DNA of 64,000 bases from Gammaproteobacteria bacterium (GTDB lineage Bacteria; Pseudomonadota; Gammaproteobacteria; Pseudomonadales; Azotimanducaceae). The notes under the pieces are model-generated. The model was given only the letters and a program-made list of their open reading frames with translations, was not told the origin of the DNA and did not search any database. Numbering within the stretch: the stretch's first letter is position 1; each line of letters starts with the position of its first letter. The stretch lies in the NCBI GenBank assembly GCA_009840545.1, contig VXNM01000014.1:245197-309196 (forward strand), written 5' to 3'. Positions 1 through 7,876 of this stretch are shown in pieces. The position numbers and the translations under genes are program-made.

Positions 1-119
1 TTTTTCGCGGTGACGGCAAGAATAACATTGAACAGGCGAACTGTTTCGCTAAATCACTTACGCGCAAGTGAAATTCGAATGGCGACACAGCACATTTCAC
101 TCGAGCATCTAGAGCAACA
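1..119 (+). pseudogene. Upstream part of the N6 DNA methylase, separated by an in-frame TGA
   Basis: Positions 3-68 read in the same frame as the methylase that follows and encode FRGDGKNNIEQANCF and a few more residues. This matches the RGDGK.NI...CF segment that lies just before the catalytic NPPF block in HsdM-like N6-adenine methylases. The frame is closed by TGA at 69-71 and reopens at once, with no ATG before the GTG at 120. Either the gene is a pseudogene, or there is a sequencing or assembly error, or a compensated frameshift lies in this short stretch. The rest of the gene is outside the window. Confidence 0.5.
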
Positions 120-743
120 GTGCCCCCGGTCACACGTGTCCTTATGAATCCCCCGTTCGGATTGAAGACAGATAAAGAATATAGATTCGTGAACCACGCA
201 CTCGAACAGATGGAGGATCATGGACTTCTTTTCTGTATCCTTCCTTATTCGGTAATGGTCAAACCCGGAGAGTACCGAGACTGGCGACGGAATCTACTCG
301 CAGCAAATTCTTTGCTTGCTGTTGTTACATTTCCGATTGATATCTTCTATCCCGTAAGTGCACCACCAGTTGGAATATTCATTCGACGTGGAACTCCACA
401 CACGTCGGCACAAAACACTCTGTGGATACGCGCAGAAACGGACGGACATCTGAAGTCCAAGGGAAAACGTTTGCGCTCGTCTAGAACAACAAACGATTTA
501 TCCGACTGTGAGCCAATCTTAAAGGCATTCCTCAACGATCCTGTCAGATGTGTGGAAAACGTACCCAAATACCTAAAGGCATGTCCAATAGATTTTGAGG
601 ACAAGTTGTTTGAACTCGTCCCGGAGGTATACCTTGATCAAGAAGACCTTTCTGATGAGGACATTCTTAGTGGGGTCGACTCTACTCTTCGCGAGTGTGC
701 GGCTTTCTTGATTCGAAACAGGATTTCTTCTACCTGGGACTAA
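120..743 (+). CDS. N6-adenine DNA methylase, C-terminal part (HsdM-like)
   Basis: This is the C-terminal part of an N6-adenine DNA methyltransferase. The catalytic motif IV NPPFG lies at residues 10-14, followed by the usual helix/strand pattern of the Rossmann methylase core (HGLLFCILPYSVM, then a VVTFPIDIFYP block). The AdoMet-binding motif I would lie upstream, outside the window. The GTG at 120 is only the first start after an in-frame TGA at 69-71. The conserved RGDGK segment upstream of that stop suggests it is not the native start. The next gene, an HsdS-like protein, begins 4 bp after the stop, so the two form an M-S pair. No restriction subunit is visible. Confidence 0.7.
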   Translation: MPPVTRVLMNPPFGLKTDKEYRFVNHALEQMEDHGLLFCILPYSVMVKPGEYRDWRRNLLAANSLLAVVTFPIDIFYPVSAPPVGIFIRRGTPHTSAQNTLWIRAETDGHLKSKGKRLRSSRTTNDLSDCEPILKAFLNDPVRCVENVPKYLKACPIDFEDKLFELVPEVYLDQEDLSDEDILSGVDSTLRECAAFLIRNRISSTWD

Positions 744-747
744 GCCT

Positions 748-1725
748 GTGGCGGTTCGTCTTGACCAACTGTTTGAAATAAAGTCGGGGGACTATCACGC
801 AGTAAGCGAGTTAGGCAGCGGCGACATACCCGTTGTATCGTGCGGGGACATTAATCACGGCTATGTGGGTCGTTTTGACGTCCCTCGGGACAAGCGATAC
901 TCCGATGCCTTGACGGTAGCATACAACGGACCAGTCCTGACGGTCAAATTCCGGCCGTATGTGTTTGGAGCTAAGGATGACATAGGGATTCTTATTCCTA
1001 AATCAAAAATGGACAGCGTAGACCTAGTCTATGTGGCGACCATCATTAACTCGATGCGTTGGCGATTTTCGTATGGCAGGAAGTGTTTTCGGGAAAAACT
1101 GCAGTTGCTTGTGTTGAACTTACCGGTAAAGAAACAAGATGATTTGACAATCTTGGACAAAGACTACATCGATGAATTGATAGGTAACCGCAGAATCGAT
1201 ATGCGCCCTAGAGTAACGGCCCGAAAGCTTAAGGACAAGCTTTGTGCAAATTGGAAGACGGTTCGGTTGAACGACATCTTTGACTTAAAGAGGGGCGATT
1301 TCCACTCAATCAGCGCACTGGGACTAGGGAACAATACCACGGTGTCCCGGACCGAAAAGGAAAATGGTGTTGTCGGGCGATTCGAGCGACCGGACGCAGC
1401 TCAACTCTACCCTCCAGGAAGAATCACTGTGAGCACGGTCACTGGGGATGCCTTCGTCCAAGTTAATGAGTTTATGGCTACCGATAATGTAGTGATTTTA
1501 GTTCCGCGGTCAGCGCAAGTATTGACGACTAGCTACTTCATCGCATCTCTTATCAATCAACAGAAATGGCGCTACGGATACGGTCGGCAATGCTATAAGG
1601 AAAAACTCTCCAATCTAGAGATTAGCATTCCGTGGAAAAACTATCGGCTTGACGAAAAAGCAATCCAGCAAGTTGTACACAGCATGAAATTTTGGCATTT
1701 CGTTGAATCAAACATTGAGCGTTAG
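748..1725 (+). CDS. HsdS-like type I specificity protein with two repeated target-recognition halves
   Basis: The 325-residue protein is an obvious internal duplication. LDQLFEIKSGD (5-15) is repeated as LNDIFDLKRGD (174-184), GYVGRFDVP (38-46) as GVVGRFERP (207-215), and WRFSYGRKCFREKL (105-118) as WRYGYGRQCYKEKL (274-287). Two tandem target-recognition domains with such a YGR..REKL ending are typical of DNA specificity subunits that guide an N6-adenine methylase in type I or BcgI-like systems. It starts at GTG 748, four bases after the methylase stop, and is probably co-translated with it. It converges on the DUF262 gene of the opposite operon. Family assignment is firm; the recognised DNA sequence cannot be told. 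Confidence 0.72.
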   Translation: MAVRLDQLFEIKSGDYHAVSELGSGDIPVVSCGDINHGYVGRFDVPRDKRYSDALTVAYNGPVLTVKFRPYVFGAKDDIGILIPKSKMDSVDLVYVATIINSMRWRFSYGRKCFREKLQLLVLNLPVKKQDDLTILDKDYIDELIGNRRIDMRPRVTARKLKDKLCANWKTVRLNDIFDLKRGDFHSISALGLGNNTTVSRTEKENGVVGRFERPDAAQLYPPGRITVSTVTGDAFVQVNEFMATDNVVILVPRSAQVLTTSYFIASLINQQKWRYGYGRQCYKEKLSNLEISIPWKNYRLDEKAIQQVVHSMKFWHFVESNIER

Positions 1726-1896
1726 TGTTACGTTTGAGTTTCAACACTAGTCACTAGTTGCAATACAGGCTTAAGATCAATGGCAGCGTTCTTGAAGTGC
1801 GACTCGCTCAAATTTACTAAATAGTGACGAAATCATTTGGCCCTATGTCCGCTTTACGCCGAATTGCGCCAGAATCCTTCAACTCAACCAACCAAG
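1726..1896. other. Convergent intergenic gap between HsdS-like and DUF262 genes
   Basis: This 171-bp A+T-rich gap separates two converging operons. It holds the doubled palindromic hexamer actagt-c-actagt near 1746-1758. I see no convincing hairpin with a U-tract and no gene. Confidence 0.4.
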
Positions 1897-3084
1897 CTAC
1901 ATGTTTTCGGTGCGAAACAATTTTCTTGATTCAGAAGGATTTTCATCCTCGACATCCAGATATTCAGTATCTCCCAATAACGCTTGTTTATTAAGCCAAA
2001 ACTGAAACCACGAAAGCAACGCATGCGCACGAGCCTCAACCGCGCTCTTTTCAACTGAGGCCTGAGTCAAATGCCGTTGAAAATCGATAAAGTGTTGATA
2101 ACATCTATCAAAGTCATGACCTTTTGCCAGTTGCCAATGTAAACAAACCAACAAATCGTTAACGAATTCAGCAAAGAGTCTACTGGTGTTACACAACTTT
2201 TCCCCCAATTGATAAGCTAGAACAAATACGGATACAATCATAGCGCGACCACGCAAAATTTGAAAATCTAGATCCATGCTGGATAGCAAATCAAAAAGCC
2301 CACGAACCCGATCGACAGCTTTTTTGTCTGCGTCAGACAACACGTTGTGTTCCTTAAACAATTTCTGAATGTCAAGATTTCTCGTACGAGCATAAACCCA
2401 ATCCCCGGAAGACTCACCACCTTCCAACGCAAACGTCTGTGCGATAATTTGAGCCGCAGTTTGTTCTCTAGCAAAACGTCGATTGGACATATTCACTTTC
2501 TGCAAAAAATCGTGGGAACCGATATCGTCAAAACAAACATTACGTAATTCACCTACCATGGCATTGAGTCGTTCACCCGAATTAATTATAGTCCCCAAAT
2601 TTAATCTGGTAAACTGCAGATTAAACTCATTTCCCTCTTCAGATTCTGACAACATTACAACAGATACATTATACTCCAAGAAGTTATCTATAAATGTCTT
2701 TGCGAAATCACAGTTATCAGCCAGATCTCGAATTTCCTGATATCGCTTACCTTCCAAGGCGCTCACCCGTTTGTACGAGTCCTCGTACAATTCATTCAAT
2801 ACCCTAAACACGAATGAGTTGTGCCGATGATCTAAAGAATTTTCGCCCAAAAAGGACATAATAGTATTCAGTCTTTGACGACCATCCACGCACTCAAACG
2901 TCCCGTTCTCGTTTTCGAATATATAGATAGATGAAATATCGAATTCTCTTCTGATGGAATCAATTAAGCGTTGTTTTGCATCTAGAGACCAAATATTGGG
3001 CTCTCTCTGATATTCAGGAAAATTTATTTCCGTAAACTTATCACGAATAGTACGAATGCTCCATCTAACTATTTTTCTCTCCAT
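1897..3084 (-). CDS. DUF262 (GmrSD N-terminal / DGQQR-type) protein
   Basis: This 395-residue protein carries a DUF262 domain at its N terminus. It shows the FPEYQRE motif (22-28), an alternating helix/strand region, and VDGRQRLNTI (66-75), the family's VDGQQR-like nucleotide-binding or hydrolysis signature. DUF262 domains occur in GmrSD, SspE and related defence proteins, where they couple recognition of modified DNA to NTP turnover. Unlike those proteins, it shows no C-terminal HNH/DUF1524 nuclease motif; the rest is helical and unassigned. It is the last gene of the methyltransferase-SIR2-DUF262 operon, starting 13 bp after the SIR2 stop. A sensor or switch role is inferred, not shown. Confidence 0.8.
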   Translation of the reverse strand: MERKIVRWSIRTIRDKFTEINFPEYQREPNIWSLDAKQRLIDSIRREFDISSIYIFENENGTFECVDGRQRLNTIMSFLGENSLDHRHNSFVFRVLNELYEDSYKRVSALEGKRYQEIRDLADNCDFAKTFIDNFLEYNVSVVMLSESEEGNEFNLQFTRLNLGTIINSGERLNAMVGELRNVCFDDIGSHDFLQKVNMSNRRFAREQTAAQIIAQTFALEGGESSGDWVYARTRNLDIQKLFKEHNVLSDADKKAVDRVRGLFDLLSSMDLDFQILRGRAMIVSVFVLAYQLGEKLCNTSRLFAEFVNDLLVCLHWQLAKGHDFDRCYQHFIDFQRHLTQASVEKSAVEARAHALLSWFQFWLNKQALLGDTEYLDVEDENPSESRKLFRTENM

Positions 3085-3097
3085 ACTAATGCTTCCT

Positions 3098-4207
3098 TTA
3101 CTCGATTAGTTTCGCCAATTCAGGTGTACTATCAGAAGAAATAGAGACTTCTGGAAGTCCATCCAATGCTAAAGCGGCACTTCGGAGCCATGTTCTAAAC
3201 CAATTATGACTACTTGGTAAACCGCTAACAAGTTCGTTTTGTTGCACTTCATCTATTTGGCTGAATGGAATTGTAACGGAAAATAGAGTATCCGCAATAG
3301 CGTCCCCAACCCCGCACCAATCTAAATCCAATATAGACCGAATTTCCAAATATGGGTACAGACTCCTTAATTGATTTACGAATATGGGTGAATCCACGAC
3401 TTCTACGATATAAGGAGAATTACTCACGTGTGTATGTCTCGTTGAGTAAAGTAATGACAATAGATCCCAATCTGTGCCACTCAACGAACAACCAATAATG
3501 CGTAGAACATCACAATCCAATATCTCCCTCGCCATTCCCCAGAGCAGGTTATATGGATAACGTGTTTTATCCTTCTGTATACCCGGCGGAATCCAAAGCG
3601 TTGAATTATTTTGAAACTCTCTAATTGGCCAAGAATCATTCCATCCAAATGATCCATGTAATTTAATTAACCTGGGCGGTTCCTTGATGGCTACGTTATT
3701 ACCATTTATATGTACTCCGAAATCTACATTATTTTGATATGTCTTGAGCATTGCGGATTCCAATAGAACATCATAATTCGTAGTAAGAATTCCATTAATC
3801 AACTCGCTCATTTCGCCTATTGAATGCAATTCTAATAGTGCTGAATAAAGGTGAAAACTGTCTTCCTTTAGTTCATCCTCTATTGCTTCCAACTCCTGCC
3901 TCAGCGTTTCCTCAAAAATTTCCCTGAGAGCTGTAGCAAACCGACGATGGGCTACCGACGGAGACTCGTCCAGAAATGTGATTATGTGTTCGATATTTGT
4001 CTCGGGATTAGCTAATCCATTAGCTACGTGCTCTATACTTGGGTCGAGTATGCTTTTCTTGGAAATATATTCTTGCACCTTTTGACTTACTGGCAAGTTT
4101 AGATGCTTCATCAAAATTTTCCGCACACCACCTACGCTATCTATGCACCCCTGTGATCCGCCTGCACCGATTAGATATGTTACGCGTTTTTTCTGTGTGT
4201 ATGGCAC
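3098..4207 (-). CDS. SIR2-family protein, probable NADase effector
   Basis: The 369-residue protein has the SIR2 NAD-binding fold. It shows LIGAGGSQG (12-20) for the first glycine loop, TTNYD (142-146) with the conserved Asn, LHGS (183-186) with the catalytic-type His, and IIGCSLSGTDWDLL (237-250) for the late nucleotide-binding segment. No zinc-binding Cys quartet is visible, so it resembles SIR2-like defence NADases (Thoeris ThsA, DSR, SIR2-HerA, SIR2-APAZ) more than histone-type sirtuins. The start is GTG 4207: an in-frame stop lies four codons upstream and the glycine loop follows at once. It is tightly linked to a DNA methyltransferase upstream (29 bp) and a DUF262 gene downstream (13 bp). 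NAD depletion on infection is inferred from family and context. Confidence 0.82.
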   Translation of the reverse strand: MPYTQKKRVTYLIGAGGSQGCIDSVGGVRKILMKHLNLPVSQKVQEYISKKSILDPSIEHVANGLANPETNIEHIITFLDESPSVAHRRFATALREIFEETLRQELEAIEDELKEDSFHLYSALLELHSIGEMSELINGILTTNYDVLLESAMLKTYQNNVDFGVHINGNNVAIKEPPRLIKLHGSFGWNDSWPIREFQNNSTLWIPPGIQKDKTRYPYNLLWGMAREILDCDVLRIIGCSLSGTDWDLLSLLYSTRHTHVSNSPYIVEVVDSPIFVNQLRSLYPYLEIRSILDLDWCGVGDAIADTLFSVTIPFSQIDEVQQNELVSGLPSSHNWFRTWLRSAALALDGLPEVSISSDSTPELAKLIE

Positions 4208-4236
4208 TATTCTATTGTTTTACGTTCGTCGGGCAA

Positions 4237-5526
4237 TTAACGGAATATTAATAATGATTCCTTTGGTAGCCGGAAATTTTCATTCTCTTTGGTCTGTTTC
4301 ACGCTAGGAGATTGCGGTGAAATTCCATAGTCTTTTCTCTTTTCAAGTTTACGATTTAGGTTCTGCATTATCTCAGTTACAATCTGCTGTAAGTCTATAA
4401 GGAACTCTTTATAGTAACTATCGCGTACGACTATACAAATATATCCATCGCTGCGCACTACTCTGGCAATTTCTTTAATACTTTCTTCGAGATTGAAAAA
4501 ATATTTATTAATCCAAGGAAAGTAGTAACTGGGGGATCCCTTAGAAGAGTGATCGCGGATGTGCTTTAACGTCTCAATTCCGTATTTTGATGAAAGGTTT
4601 GACGGCAATTTTTGATTATATCCTCGCACTACTGGAGTACCTAAGGAGTCCTGCCTTAATTTAGTCAAAAAACCTCTATCTGCTCCGAGTACTGCCAATT
4701 CCGGCAATACTCCTTTTACATAGTCGATTCGAGTTGCATAAGGTGGAGAAGTAATTACTCCGTCGATTTCTCCGTCACCAAACGGTAATCGTTGAGAATC
4801 TTGAGTGAGAAACCTAGCATTGGATGAGGAAACCCGAGACTTGGATATTAAATTTCTAAGTCTATCGAATGATTCGACGAATACCTTAAGGCAAAGTTCC
4901 TCTGAAGGTGCTATACGTTGTGCGATGGTTGCAGGCTCTTTAAACCACGTAGGATTCGTTGTAGTGAATCGTTGTAGCAACTTACGTACACTCATAAAAA
5001 GCGCGCAGTAGGAAAAACAGCATGTATTGTCAAAAGAGTTAGCCCGTGTAATTGCATCTAATGAATAGCAATTGTCCATTCCGTTTGTGTTACATTGATG
5101 TATTGCAGATTGAATGGCACGTATATGTGATACCGAGCTTGGTCGCATCCAGTGTAACAACAAGTCGTCCGGCTGCTCATTCTTATTACGTTTAGTTATT
5201 TCTGAGATAATCCGATTGCACAGTTCGCCAAGACTTTCGTAACACTCTCCTACTTTTAGTCGAGCTTTTGCGATGACCGTCAATGCCGGATTTATGTCAA
5301 TCCCTATAGACGAGATTCCCTTCTGTGCGCACACTGAAGTGGTAGTTCCAGAACCATTCCAAGGATCTAATACCAAAGTTGCGTCCGAAAGGTAACTCTC
5401 TATCACTGAACTCACAAATCCTTCGGTAAATGCTGCGTAGTATGGATACCAGTCTCGGTCTCGTGCAAGCACAGGTTGTTTGGGTGACCTTAGCAAGCTG
5501 CCTTTGAGTGGGAAACTCTCTCTCAT
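4237..5526 (-). CDS. Site-specific DNA methyltransferase (amino-methylase, SPPY type)
   Basis: The 429-residue protein is a DNA amino-methyltransferase. Motif I, LDPWNGSGTT (53-62), binds AdoMet and is followed by GIDINP (acidic loop). Motif IV, TSPPY (259-263), within ITSPPYATRIDY, is the catalytic motif of N4-cytosine or N6-adenine enzymes. The 200 residues between them may hold target-recognition elements. It is the first gene of a minus-strand operon with a SIR2 protein and a DUF262 protein. The ATG at 5526 has no stronger alternative. Its likely role is to mark host DNA, either as a protective modification or as the signal read by its partners. The base modified and the site recognised cannot be deduced. 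Confidence 0.85.
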   Translation of the reverse strand: MRESFPLKGSLLRSPKQPVLARDRDWYPYYAAFTEGFVSSVIESYLSDATLVLDPWNGSGTTTSVCAQKGISSIGIDINPALTVIAKARLKVGECYESLGELCNRIISEITKRNKNEQPDDLLLHWMRPSSVSHIRAIQSAIHQCNTNGMDNCYSLDAITRANSFDNTCCFSYCALFMSVRKLLQRFTTTNPTWFKEPATIAQRIAPSEELCLKVFVESFDRLRNLISKSRVSSSNARFLTQDSQRLPFGDGEIDGVITSPPYATRIDYVKGVLPELAVLGADRGFLTKLRQDSLGTPVVRGYNQKLPSNLSSKYGIETLKHIRDHSSKGSPSYYFPWINKYFFNLEESIKEIARVVRSDGYICIVVRDSYYKEFLIDLQQIVTEIMQNLNRKLEKRKDYGISPQSPSVKQTKENENFRLPKESLLIFR

Positions 5527-5551
5527 AGTTCCAATCTAGCTATTCCCGTTT

Positions 5552-5600
5552 TAGTGATTCTCGTCATCCTTGAAAACATGATACACACCAAGAATCACTA
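5552..5600 (-). promoter_or_regulatory. Perfect 10-bp dyad upstream of the methyltransferase-SIR2-DUF262 operon
   Basis: The arms tagtgattct (5552-5561) and agaatcacta (5591-5600) are perfect inverted repeats around a 29-bp spacer, 26-75 bp upstream of the methyltransferase ATG on the minus strand. This placement suits an operator, for example for autoregulation, or a 5'-UTR hairpin. No clear -35/-10 pair could be assigned with confidence. Confidence 0.4.
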
Positions 5601-5866
5601 CACATGGATAGGTATCGATTAAACAGACGATTCCGAGGGAGTTGTTCATCTGCCAAATGAAGATCCTAAAGATCCACAGTTTACCGGAGGAAATGGAGCA
5701 TGTGTAGTTTCCTTGTCTGACGAAAGGCTTGTGAGCGTGCGACATTCGCACTGCGTGTCAGATGTCTGGATTTATACATGCTCAAAGTCACACAGAATCC
5801 GCGCAACGTGCAGCGTAGACTATACTGGGTACGTTAGTTGCGTAGATAAGTTCGACGGTAGTTTTT
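5578..5866 (+). pseudogene. Gene remnant interrupted by TAA and cut off by the insertion element
   Basis: From ATG 5578 one frame encodes MIHTKNHYTWIGID, stops at TAA 5620-5622, then stays open in the same frame (HLPNEDPKDPQFTGGNGACV, later SDERLVSVRHSHC) up to the left inverted repeat of the insertion element at 5867. The composition looks coding and the frame is shared on both sides of the TAA. This suggests an old gene that acquired a stop codon and lost its end to the insertion. I do not recognise the family, and no clear continuation exists to the right of the element. Confidence 0.35.
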
Positions 5867-5892
5867 GGCTCAATTGTAGTTAAAGGTTGAAA
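5867..5892 (+). repeat. Left terminal inverted repeat of the IS1595-like element
   Basis: A 26-bp sequence beginning ggctcaattgtagttaa. It pairs with the reverse complement of 6872-6897 at 24 of 26 positions; the two mismatches lie at the 18th and 19th bases. Confidence 0.8.
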
Positions 5893-6771
5893 TCGTCTCT
5901 TGTGTGTGGGCGGAGTCAGCACCTCGCATTCGCTGAACGTGAGTTTTCGAATGGCTTGGATCCACCTAAGATATCCCTGCAGATACCGCGTGGACACACC
6001 CCGTGCCTGTTCATTGACAAGGCTTTTGAGATGGGCGTGCCTGGCCTTCACTCTGGCCAGGCTGAAACGACCCTTCTTCAGAGACTGATTGAGCTTGGGC
6101 GGGAGCTTCTTCGTTCTGTGGCCGGAAACAACAATGTAGACGGCAACCTCCGTGTTCCGGGCCACTCCCCGGTAGGTTCCGCCTGACAGCAGTTTCCGCT
6201 GTGATCGATGGCCGTCAACTCGGGCACATGGTCCCAGGATGCTCCACGCTTCGGCGATCTTCCCCAATGCCGAGGCGCTCGAGGCGCAGTAGGATTTCCG
6301 CGATTCCAGCCACGGCTTCCCTTGAAGCTCTCGCGAAAGCACGTCTTGTCGATCTCGACGATGCCCTTTGTCAGCGACATTGCGCCAACTCCAAAGAGTC
6401 CCACGGGAGACTTCCACGTCCCCGAGCCTGTGCAAGTCGTCCAGCAATCGATTTCCTACCGCCGGAGCATGAAGAAAGACGGACCACTTCTCCGGTTTGC
6501 GCGTGCGCGAGAACGGAGCTCCAGTCCTTCCTTTGAAGGTGCGTCCTTAACCTCCCTCGGACGGTGGTCGGGCGCGAAAGCGTTGCGTACCCCGAGAGTC
6601 TCGTTCATGCCGATAGGCCTTGTCCATGCCGCAGTGCGCGCATCGACCGCTTTCCCGCATCGACTGCCCGAAGTTGCGGAGCATGCACACCGGTGCGACC
6701 GTTTCACAGCGACCGAGCCCGGCTCTCGAGCCTTTCCAGTTCCTCTGAGGAAATCTCGTCAAGATGTTCAA
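5870..6771 (-). pseudogene. IS1595/ISXO2-type transposase, frameshifted remnant
   Basis: Pieces of one transposase are spread over all three minus-strand frames. A zinc-ribbon start with CAHCGMDKAYRHERDSRGTQ lies in the 6771-6547 frame. An LRTHLQRKDW segment near 6530 is in a second frame, and VSRGTLWSWR follows near 6405. The catalytic start GIVEIDKTCFRESFKGSR and an AKRG-like segment lie in the 6404-6078 frame. The C-terminal ARHAHLKSLV...STRYLQGYLRW is back in the first frame. At least three frameshifts are needed, and most of the middle of the DDE domain between the DRSG-like and LNQS-like blocks is missing. The transposase cannot be active. Confidence 0.75.
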
Positions 6772-6871
6772 GAATGGTCGAGAACATCAGTTAATCGTTA
6801 AGCAATTCCGTCTTGCAAATCAGGCGGGTGACCTTTAGAGTTGCCCGTTATACGGGGACGATTCCTCCAAT

Positions 6872-6897
6872 TTTCAACACTTAACTACAATTGAGCC
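6872..6897 (-). repeat. Right terminal inverted repeat of the IS1595-like element
   Basis: A 26-bp inverted copy of the left end, 24 of 26 matching. It lies 34 bp upstream of the dehydrogenase start, so the element may have displaced or supplied that gene's promoter. Confidence 0.8.
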
Positions 6898-6931
6898 TCT
6901 ACTGATACCTGTAATCGACAGGGTTGAAAAC

Positions 6932-7876
6932 ATGAAGGTCAAGAACATTCGCTATACATCAGGAGGTGGCGCTGAGCTGGTTTCATACGAGATATCCGAT
7001 CCTGGACCAGGTGAGGTGCAAATTGAAACTGCGGCGTGCGGCATTTGTTCGTGGGATCTCCAGACTTTTCGTACAGGATCGGATGGGCCAAGTCCTGCAC
7101 CTCCTGGACACGAAGGCATGGGGTATGTAAGCAAACTCGGACCTGGTGTCACGAATCTTGAAGTTGGGCAAAGAGTAGTGGGTGGCGGTTTTGCCCAAGT
7201 TCGCAACGCACCGGCAAATCGAATCCACAAAATTCCCGATTCCAACTTGGCAGATCATCACTGGATTGTGGAGCCAGTCTCTTGTGTTGTCACGGGTATG
7301 GATCACTGCCGACTGAAAGCAGGAGAACGGCTGGCAATGGTCGGTTGCGGATTCATGGGATTGATGATGATTCAAGGCTTGGCCGGAGCTGGTGCGGATC
7401 AACTCATTGCGCTCGATATCGACGATCGACGACTAGACCTCGCCAGTCAGTTCGGAGCAACGGAAGCGTATAGCGTCAACGACGAGGGCTTCGATCAAAT
7501 ACGTAAAGACTTGCGTAGTCGCAGGATTGATACGGTTGTGGACACAAGCGGATCTCAATCAGGATTAGATCTTGCAACCGAAATCGTGAAGGTTGGCGGC
7601 TTGATCAATCTTTTTGGTTGGATTAAGGGTTCCACTGCCACCTTCAATCCAACTGCGTGGCACGGAAAGGCAATATCCATTGTCAATACCTCTCCTGCAG
7701 CGCAAATGCGTGATCCTTTTCCAGTTGCAATTCGTCTGATTCACAACGGCTTAATTGATTTGAAACCATTGGTTACGCATGTAATTCCCATCGATGAATA
7801 TCCGGAATTCATGCATGGCGTAACGACTGGTGAAGTTGATGGTTACATAAAGGGTGTTGTTACTCACACTCGTTAA
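6932..7876 (+). CDS. Medium-chain (MDR) alcohol/sorbitol-type dehydrogenase
   Basis: At 314 residues this is a short MDR-family oxidoreductase. The GroES-like domain has AACGICSWD (34-42, Cys36) and GHEG (59-62), the usual catalytic-zinc ligand motifs. The Rossmann half has GCGFMG (138-143) followed by an acidic ALDIDDRR strand end, which suggests NAD(H). The four-Cys structural zinc lobe of classical alcohol dehydrogenases is absent, and the protein is shorter than the usual 340-360 residues. The substrate is unknown; polyol or sugar-alcohol oxidation is one option. It begins 35 bp beyond the insertion element and is followed 79 bp later by a rhodanese gene. Confidence 0.8.
   Translation: MKVKNIRYTSGGGAELVSYEISDPGPGEVQIETAACGICSWDLQTFRTGSDGPSPAPPGHEGMGYVSKLGPGVTNLEVGQRVVGGGFAQVRNAPANRIHKIPDSNLADHHWIVEPVSCVVTGMDHCRLKAGERLAMVGCGFMGLMMIQGLAGAGADQLIALDIDDRRLDLASQFGATEAYSVNDEGFDQIRKDLRSRRIDTVVDTSGSQSGLDLATEIVKVGGLINLFGWIKGSTATFNPTAWHGKAISIVNTSPAAQMRDPFPVAIRLIHNGLIDLKPLVTHVIPIDEYPEFMHGVTTGEVDGYIKGVVTHTR

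Follow-up and report, generated by a model that had tools for sequence, protein, structure and literature searches.

A compact methyltransferase-SIR2-DUF262 operon is a rare effector swap within a known kind of methyltransferase-DUF262-toxin system

DNA methyltransferases (MTases) mark DNA, DUF262 proteins bind and hydrolyse nucleoside triphosphates (NTPs) and sense the state of DNA, and SIR2 proteins deplete nicotinamide adenine dinucleotide (NAD), the cell's central cofactor. Here we analyse an operon that unites these three families, located on the minus strand at positions 1897-5526 of a 64,000-nucleotide stretch of contig VXNM01000014.1 (hereafter, the window) from an Azotimanducaceae genome (GCA_009840545.1). 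Its closest described relatives involve the MAE_28990 HEPN family, found in operons with 'ParB nuclease' and DNA methylase genes in a report whose main text mentions neither SIR2 nor sirtuins (Anantharaman et al. 2013, PMC3710099). These operons are the HEPN form of the window system, with the same MTase family, the same DUF262 family, a compact operon and a toxin-type third gene; their toxin, however, is HEPN and mostly occupies the third position, whereas that of the window is SIR2 and comes second. No HEPN match was found in the window operon, where SIR2 stands in its place, and we conclude that MTase-SIR2-DUF262 constitutes a rare effector swap, SIR2 for HEPN, in a known MTase-DUF262-toxin kind of system.

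In the sections consulted, PMC10952713 lists GmrSD, BrxU, SspABCD-SspE, Menshen, Dazbog and PD-T4-2 as systems with DUF262, and Thoeris, SPARSA, DSR1, DSR2, Sir2-HerA, Avast V and PD-T7-2 as systems with SIR2, and the two lists have no system in common. The same sections report that SspE and BrxU couple DNA-modification sensing to NTP hydrolysis, and that PD-T4-2 also carries HEPN, with no MTase among its listed domains (PMC10952713). A literature search that left most subscription journals and all bioRxiv preprints outside its reach found DUF262 together with HEPN in two papers and together with SIR2 in one only, PMC10952713, which does not unite the two in these sections; and no profile matched by the window proteins in Pfam, NCBIfam (matches below cut-off only) or PADLOC names the trio. 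An earlier, sequence-only reading of the window had stated that no named system was known to it to contain exactly these three genes; the absence of a naming profile agrees with that statement, which has to be qualified by the existence of close kin in the MTase-DUF262-HEPN family recorded in 2013 and related to PD-T4-2.

The operon runs from the MTase through SIR2 to DUF262, with gaps of 29 bp and 13 bp, respectively, and all three products score above the curated Pfam cut-offs (N6_N4_Mtase, SIR2_2 and GmrSD_N; Table 1). The open-reading frame (ORF) calls reproduce the genes, coordinates and gaps of the sequence-only reading, together with the SPPY motif of the MTase, Asn144 and His184 of SIR2, the VDGRQR of DUF262 (residues 66-71) and an A+T-rich composition, the G+C content of positions 2001-5000 being 39-41% versus mostly 47-52% past 7 kb. 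Promoter patterns (15 versus 10.7 by chance, sd 3.3) and terminator patterns (1 versus 3.0) both occur in near chance number. That reading had proposed the trio as a candidate anti-phage system whose standing would depend on recurrence elsewhere. Because the unit recurs in unrelated genomes, with the order MTase-SIR2-DUF262 in four of 80 loci of the MTase family, the association is more than chance. These four loci, all transcribed in a single direction, come from metagenome-assembled genomes (MAGs) of a Gammaproteobacteria (L015), a Pseudomonadales (L016), an Acidobacteriaceae (L020) and a Deltaproteobacteria (L069) member.

The 80 loci are the best of 144 relatives obtained by scanning 84,980 species genomes with an alignment of three MTases, one of them truncated. 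Neighbours lying no farther than 3 kb from the MTase were classified and counted with profiles built in this analysis; since these profiles were iterated with their own members included, their E-values are inflated, and representatives were checked in Pfam. DUF262 lies within 3 kb in 63 of the 80 loci, which divide into 47 with HEPN and DUF262, six with a HEPN-like protein (206-220 aa) and DUF262, four with SIR2 and DUF262, six with DUF262 only, one that retains just a remnant of SIR2 (L055) and 16 that lack all of these genes. DUF262 thus accompanies HEPN or a HEPN-like protein in 53 loci, and a toxin-type gene of any of the three kinds in 57. Among the six DUF262-only loci, L081 and L082 have HEPN just past 3 kb, three reach the contig end soon after DUF262, and the sixth is L074. 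Farther than 3 kb from the MTase, only four of 346 ORFs were labelled (two HEPN, one SIR2 and one HEPN-like, from L081, L082, L037 and L066). In Pfam, GmrSD_N is above cut-off in all five SIR2-linked loci examined (L015, L016, L020, L069 and L110), and SIR2_2 is above cut-off in L015, L016, L103 and L110 but below it in L020 (24.1 versus 24.5 bits) and L069 (18.2 bits). Since DUF262 is present in 63 of the 80 loci while the third gene varies, an MTase and DUF262 with an exchangeable toxin is a general pattern, and the MTase family that bears it is found in both bacteria and archaea.

HEPN toxins are probably RNA cutters, and R-x4-H is the HEPN signature. This signature is found in the second half of all 50 HEPN proteins examined. 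The HEPN-like proteins (four examined) have no Pfam match above cut-off, and all eight aligned contain R-x-F-[YF]-A-H, which fits the signature, so that they likely represent an unrecognised HEPN class as judged from these residues. DUF262 is accompanied by a HEPN-like partner of 206-220 aa in L013, L021, L022, L030, L066, L073, L077 and L092. In L066 (5947-11101) an MTase-DUF262-HEPN set is shortly followed by a second DUF262 with a HEPN-like partner, forming two sensor-toxin cassettes in tandem.

The MTase of the window aligns with its relatives along most of its length, and both alignment and tree place it in the family; it is 30% identical to the MTase of a Roseomonas HEPN locus, a tblastn search of plasmids with the window MTase having returned Roseomonas loci of the form MTase-DUF262-HEPN. 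Its DPWNGSGTT and SPPY motifs we take to be the S-adenosylmethionine-binding motif I and the catalytic motif IV, respectively, and the patterns of both are present in 83 of 87 MTase ORFs of at least 380 aa (counting copies of the window locus), and the other four lack the motif I pattern. Against viral contigs the window MTase alone gave no match; the MTase alignment matched three (L012, L013 and L014), and L013 carries a full MTase-DUF262-HEPN-like set. The genome of the window also contains a truncated, 310-aa paralogue of the MTase, following a DUF262-HNH fusion gene (L101). In four loci (L051, L070, L079 and L093) the MTase family is followed by genes of about 280, 370, 500-580 and 455-480 aa; similar four-gene sets occur in L025, L035 and L103, and in L060 and L086 without the first gene in the ORF calls. 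The last gene (455-480 aa) is AAA/superfamily-1 helicase-like, whereas Pfam gave no significant match for the others examined, three from L070 and two from L103, and PADLOC none for those of L070. These genes may together form a methylase-led defence system that has yet to be described.

By profile and by fold, the SIR2 protein of the window falls among defence sirtuins. Its profile matched SIR2/HerA chains in the PDB and, weakly, KomC and DSR-type chains; a Foldseek search with its predicted model gave 13 matches at E ≤ 1e-3, all to entries whose titles name SIR2, SIR2-HerA or HerA, with ThsA, KomBC and DSR2 ranking next; and PADLOC returned Dsr2 and SIR2 fragments. In an alignment of seven proteins G14, G16, N144, D146, H184 and G185 are invariant, and in three printed alignments with PDB chains Asn144 corresponds to the N of TTNYD and His184 to the H of HG. 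The active-site-type residues of SIR2, like those of DUF262, are invariant in all seven SIR2-linked relatives, and the degeneration that would have spoken against the sequence-only reading is not seen. We consider that the protein probably destroys NAD. That it is instead a protein-modifying or signal-making enzyme is the least probable of the explanations considered here: it shares little sequence with SIR2 proteins of solved structure (13-20% identity in its 13 best Foldseek alignments) and the NADase role is a prediction, but the Asn and His of the NADase site are invariant in seven of seven proteins and the best matches are to defence SIR2 entries.

For the DUF262 protein, the predicted model (mean predicted local distance difference test, pLDDT, 88.1) is ParB-like with a helical C-terminal half. 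Foldseek matched it to SspE (2.7e-4), BrxU (3.3e-4) and then Noc/ParB; because the SspE and BrxU matches have low TM-scores (0.25 and 0.27, relative to the query), we take them to support a ParB-like N-terminal domain only, and by sequence no PDB chain matched the DUF262 profile at 0.01. YQR and D-G-x-Q-R are invariant over the seven SIR2-linked DUF262 proteins, and D-G-x-Q-R over a 49-protein set as well. As the sequence-only reading had noted, the protein has no nuclease domain, either in Pfam or among its best fold matches. This finding bears on a two-tier form of restriction, in which DUF262 would be a ParB-like nuclease acting on unmethylated DNA and SIR2 a suicide back-up. The partner of MAE_28990 HEPN is named a 'ParB nuclease' (PMC3710099), the window DUF262 has a weak match to the REase_II profile PDLC03418 of PADLOC (2.4e-4, residues 23-109, with no endonuclease domain in Pfam), and elsewhere in the genome of the window (contig C2; L101, 5365-8685) an EcoRI-type methylase gene overlaps the DUF262-HNH fusion gene. 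Yet the fusion of HNH to this paralogue suggests that cutting depends on a nuclease other than DUF262 itself and, together with the absence of a nuclease domain, renders two-tier restriction improbable.

Several described systems were compared with the operon and set aside as identities. PD-T4-2 (Vassallo et al. 2022) was rejected, there being no HEPN in the operon and only a weak PD-T4-2_A match to the window DUF262 (7.5e-9, residues 15-89 only), whereas the HEPN-type DUF262 of L048 matches PD-T4-2_A along its length (4.4e-44). Sir2-HerA, although its SIR2 is the nearest solved one by profile and fold, was rejected since the operon contains no HerA and the partner is a GmrSD_N protein. Thoeris, in which a ThsA-type SIR2 with a STALD domain has a TIR partner, was rejected on a ThsA profile match of only 0.015 over 51 residues and the lack of TIR in the three genes. 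GmrSD, BrxU and SspE have in common with the window DUF262 a ParB-like fold and the D-G-x-Q-R motif, but identity with them was rejected because the window DUF262 has no DUF1524/HNH domain in Pfam, a helical C-terminal half and a separate SIR2 effector. The PADLOC NsnA profile matches the DUF262 of the window (5.1e-19) and of L015 (1.8e-21, over most of the profile) and fits HEPN-type DUF262 better (L048, 6.1e-59); the system behind the Nsn name could not be found. The plasmid locus L008 of Sinorhizobium americanum contains adjacent DUF262 and SIR2 genes that are distant homologues (DUF262, 27.7%), but there DUF262 comes first with no annotated MTase within 6 kb, whereas in the window it comes last and the MTase is part of the operon.

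Further SIR2-DUF262 pairs were found outside the 80 loci. L103, from a Dehalococcoidia MAG, was reached through a SIR2 gene at the edge of L037, and its pair resembles that of the window (SIR2 41% identical over 229 residues, DUF262 45% over 326 columns) but lies downstream of an MTase of another clade, with four genes between. When 251 genomes of the same phylum were searched with a SIR2 profile, one more locus emerged, L110, where SIR2 and DUF262 are separated by 2 bp and diverge from genes for a C5 methylase (PF00145 1.3e-80) and for HNH and HhH-GPD-like proteins; the L110 genome had no match to the window MTase family at 1e-10. At the end of a viral contig (L113), a SIR2-type DUF262 is followed by a methylase-like gene, the preceding side lying beyond the contig end. 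Both L110 and L113 were found through SIR2 or DUF262 profiles rather than the MTase, and both adjoin methylase genes of other kinds.

Phylogenetic analysis indicates that the sensor-effector pair and its MTases have had separate histories. Quick-search trees were computed for DUF262 (68 rows) and the MTase (84 rows), after removal of L006, of MTases shorter than 380 aa and of any copy of the window locus. SIR2-linked DUF262 proteins, six or, with the distant L008, seven, fall on one side of a branch with support of 97, and the HEPN-like class occupies its own branch (99). The window DUF262 is 14-20% identical to HEPN-type and HEPN-like-type DUF262, and the SIR2-type DUF262 proteins group apart from these. 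In the MTase tree the window, L015 and L016 group together (100) while L020 and L069 are placed elsewhere, and SIR2-linked MTases require four changes, counting L055, which is labelled SIR2 there although its SIR2 is a remnant. The case is sharpest for L103, whose DUF262 nests between those of the window and of L015/L016 while its MTase belongs to another clade. Since SIR2-linked DUF262 proteins group and their MTases do not, these trees portray a stable SIR2-DUF262 pair around which MTases have been exchanged. This exchange suggests that target specificity resides in the MTase and not solely in DUF262, although DUF262 may instead have diversified in parallel.

We propose, giving it about an even chance and in keeping with the mechanism put forward in the sequence-only reading, that the operon is a restriction-like abortive-infection defence with an NADase in place of a nuclease, for which we infer the methylation target, the trigger, complex formation, the NADase activity and phage defence itself. 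The MTase would methylate host DNA and thereby provide a self mark, and the DUF262 protein, a ParB/SspE-like NTPase without a nuclease, would detect DNA that lacks it. Target recognition would derive at least partly from the MTase, which might for instance stay bound to foreign sites that lack methylation while DUF262 serves as adaptor, because MTases were exchanged while DUF262 and SIR2 stayed together. DUF262 would then activate the adjacent SIR2, which would hydrolyse NAD, and the cell would stop before phage release. More tentatively, and below an even chance, SIR2-DUF262 may be a transferable killing cassette that links the destruction of NAD to any MTase beside it, a nuclease-less restriction in which the MTase would give both self-marking and trigger recognition and in which toxins (HEPN, SIR2) and MTases (SPPY, C5) would be swapped around a DUF262 adaptor.

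Several observations weigh against the proposed self-marking defence. DUF262 proteins of known function (GmrSD, BrxU, SspE and likely Dazbog) respond to modified, not unmodified, DNA (PMC10952713). The exchange of MTases, with a single clade for the five SIR2-linked MTases rejected (approximately unbiased test, p-AU 2.3e-56, in a 74-row tree that omitted L055 and nine further rows, long or duplicate), is difficult to reconcile with the simple view that DUF262 recognises a fixed unmethylated site by itself, and long branches affect both the DUF262 and the MTase trees. In L110, as in L103, the pair and the MTase may be separate systems. The figure of 63 DUF262 neighbours in 80 loci is biased by the MTase bait, and in eight plasmid neighbourhoods baited with DUF262 and viewed through incomplete gene tables, five had no annotated MTase (L008, L133, L134, L136 and L138), including L008, the only DUF262-SIR2 pair of the eight. 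The SIR2 model, built from five sequences, is weak (pLDDT 64.7, residues 185-213 below 50).

The neighbourhoods without an annotated MTase comprise the DUF262-SIR2 of Sinorhizobium, a DUF262-HEPN of E. coli, a DUF262-DUF3696 of Acinetobacter, and those of Paenibacillus and Hymenobacter, whose partners have no assigned family. As they are mostly of other DUF262 types, they left our estimate for the self-marking defence unchanged. An annotated MTase was present in the other three (L007, L135 and L137), namely an SNF2-MTase-DUF262-helicase array on a Rhizobium plasmid, a 708-aa MTase followed by DUF262 and HEPN on a Tabrizicola plasmid, and a DUF262-HEPN-cytosine methyltransferase operon on a Phaeobacter inhibens plasmid (L137, 3447-6333), where the pair of DUF262 and HEPN likewise has an MTase of another class as its partner. 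The toxin and the MTase class beside DUF262 therefore vary, and an MTase need not be present.

These DUF262-effector pairs without an annotated MTase would agree with a type IV-like mechanism, in which DUF262 senses modified foreign DNA and triggers SIR2, and the MTase serves regulation or places a mark that DUF262 needs. The DNA of phage T4 is itself modified. PD-T4-2, with DUF262 and HEPN domains (PMC10952713), protects against T4, and its deletion from the native strain leads to more T4 plaquing (PMC9519451). The nearest folds to the window DUF262, SspE and BrxU, respond to modified DNA (PMC10952713). Opposed to this, our main rival explanation, are the constancy of DUF262 beside the MTase in the 80 loci, where the third gene is the variable one, and the methylase genes that adjoin both SIR2-type loci reached by baits other than the MTase; we deem the type IV-like mechanism unlikely.

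The SIR2 form of the system is rare. With search centres left out, the pair was detected at 1e-15 in one of 250, none of 198 and none of 197 sampled genomes of three phyla. In the class of the window, one of 368 other genomes had a SIR2 match at 1e-8, to a lone SIR2; in its phylum, two of 298 others matched the single SIR2 sequence, both without MTase or DUF262 by profiles. SIR2 matches in G761, G262 and G237 (L096, L003 and L004; neighbourhoods L097-L099) were not accepted as systems, as no MTase or DUF262 was detected nearby by profiles, and SIR2 profiles had no match in viral contigs. This distribution can be set against the view of the operon as a selfish addiction module, with methylation as antitoxin, SIR2 as toxin, death upon operon loss and phage defence as a secondary effect. 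Addiction modules are common on plasmids and phages, and SIR2 queries had no match in 72,556 plasmid records (four queries) or 50,697 phage records (one query); a dedicated NTPase sensor also exceeds what addiction needs. The compact operon, its variable site and the retention of the MTase where the effector was lost (L055) would all suit such a module, which we nevertheless hold to be very improbable. At L055 (5905-7925) the MTase is open over its length and the start of SIR2 is joined to the end of DUF262 in a single ORF; the locus is what a natural deletion has left of the SIR2 form, an outcome to be expected where the effector genes, but not the MTase, carry a cost.

The chromosomal site of the operon is variable. 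The island containing it begins 1.8 kb before the window (-1813 to 6921; G000:C3:243384-252118) and is bordered by an aminotransferase gene and, at 6932, a zinc-dehydrogenase gene. At the same site a close relative (G1577; flanks 90% and 93% identical) has about 6 kb of other genes, and another genome of the genus (G1578) a single different gene. No DNA match inside 1897-5526 was found in 17 other same-genus genomes, most of the larger ones being searched via 16 first-look candidates. The restriction-type gene pair that the sequence-only reading had placed beside the operon does adjoin it, but in detail consists of the 3' part of a split N6 methylase, whose 5' part lies upstream of the window (PF02384 1.7e-19), and a Methylase_S gene. 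The insertion sequence it had also mentioned, which lies on the other side, was likewise confirmed by its inverted repeats and by partial copies elsewhere in the same genome and genus; no transposase or Pfam domain was detected in the two ORFs examined. The overall interpretation of that reading is sustained in part, as regards a conserved three-gene unit with intact residues at a variable site; it had not foreseen the kinship with known MTase-DUF262-HEPN operons.

Table 1. Coordinates of the operon, its sequence motifs and the surrounding features in the window.
Feature	Position	Strand	Evidence
Window part of variable island	1..6921		Other genes at site in two same-genus genomes
3' part of split N6 DNA methylase	120..743	+	PF02384 3e-10
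Specificity-type Methylase_S gene	748..1725	+	PF01420 1.5e-16
DUF262 / GmrSD_N protein, predicted NTP-dependent DNA sensor, 395 aa	1897..3084	-	PF03235 1.7e-15
DUF262 nucleotide-pocket motif DGRQR, residues 67-71	2872..2886	-	D67, G68, Q70, R71 invariant in 49 aligned DUF262
DUF262 YQR, residues 25-27	3004..3012	-	Y25 Q26 R27 invariant 7/7; Q26 R27 49/49
SIR2_2 protein of 369 aa with GTG start, predicted NADase effector	3098..4207	-	PF13289 6.5e-8; profile and fold matches
SIR2 His184 codon (KLHGS)	3656..3658	-	Invariant 7/7
SIR2 Asn144 codon (TTNYD)	3776..3778	-	Invariant 7/7
DNA methyltransferase, SPPY type, 429 aa, first gene	4237..5526	-	PF01555 1.2e-16; PADLOC MTase_II 3.1e-26
MTase SPPY, residues 260-263	4738..4749	-	Invariant 3/3 in alignment
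MTase DPWNGSGTT, residues 54-62	5341..5367	-	D54-G58, G60-T62 invariant, 3-row alignment
Degraded insertion sequence, 26-nt terminal inverted repeats	5867..6897		Repeats 5867-5892, 6872-6897

We know of no test of the MTase-DUF262-toxin family beyond that of the related PD-T4-2, and the family matters more widely, given that a toxin-type gene and DUF262 accompany the MTase in most of the loci surveyed. If our proposal is true, the operon would link methylation-based self-recognition to a NAD-depleting SIR2 through DUF262, raising the question of how a DUF262 protein without a nuclease tells self from foreign DNA, and of whether the MTase lends its specificity to the killer.

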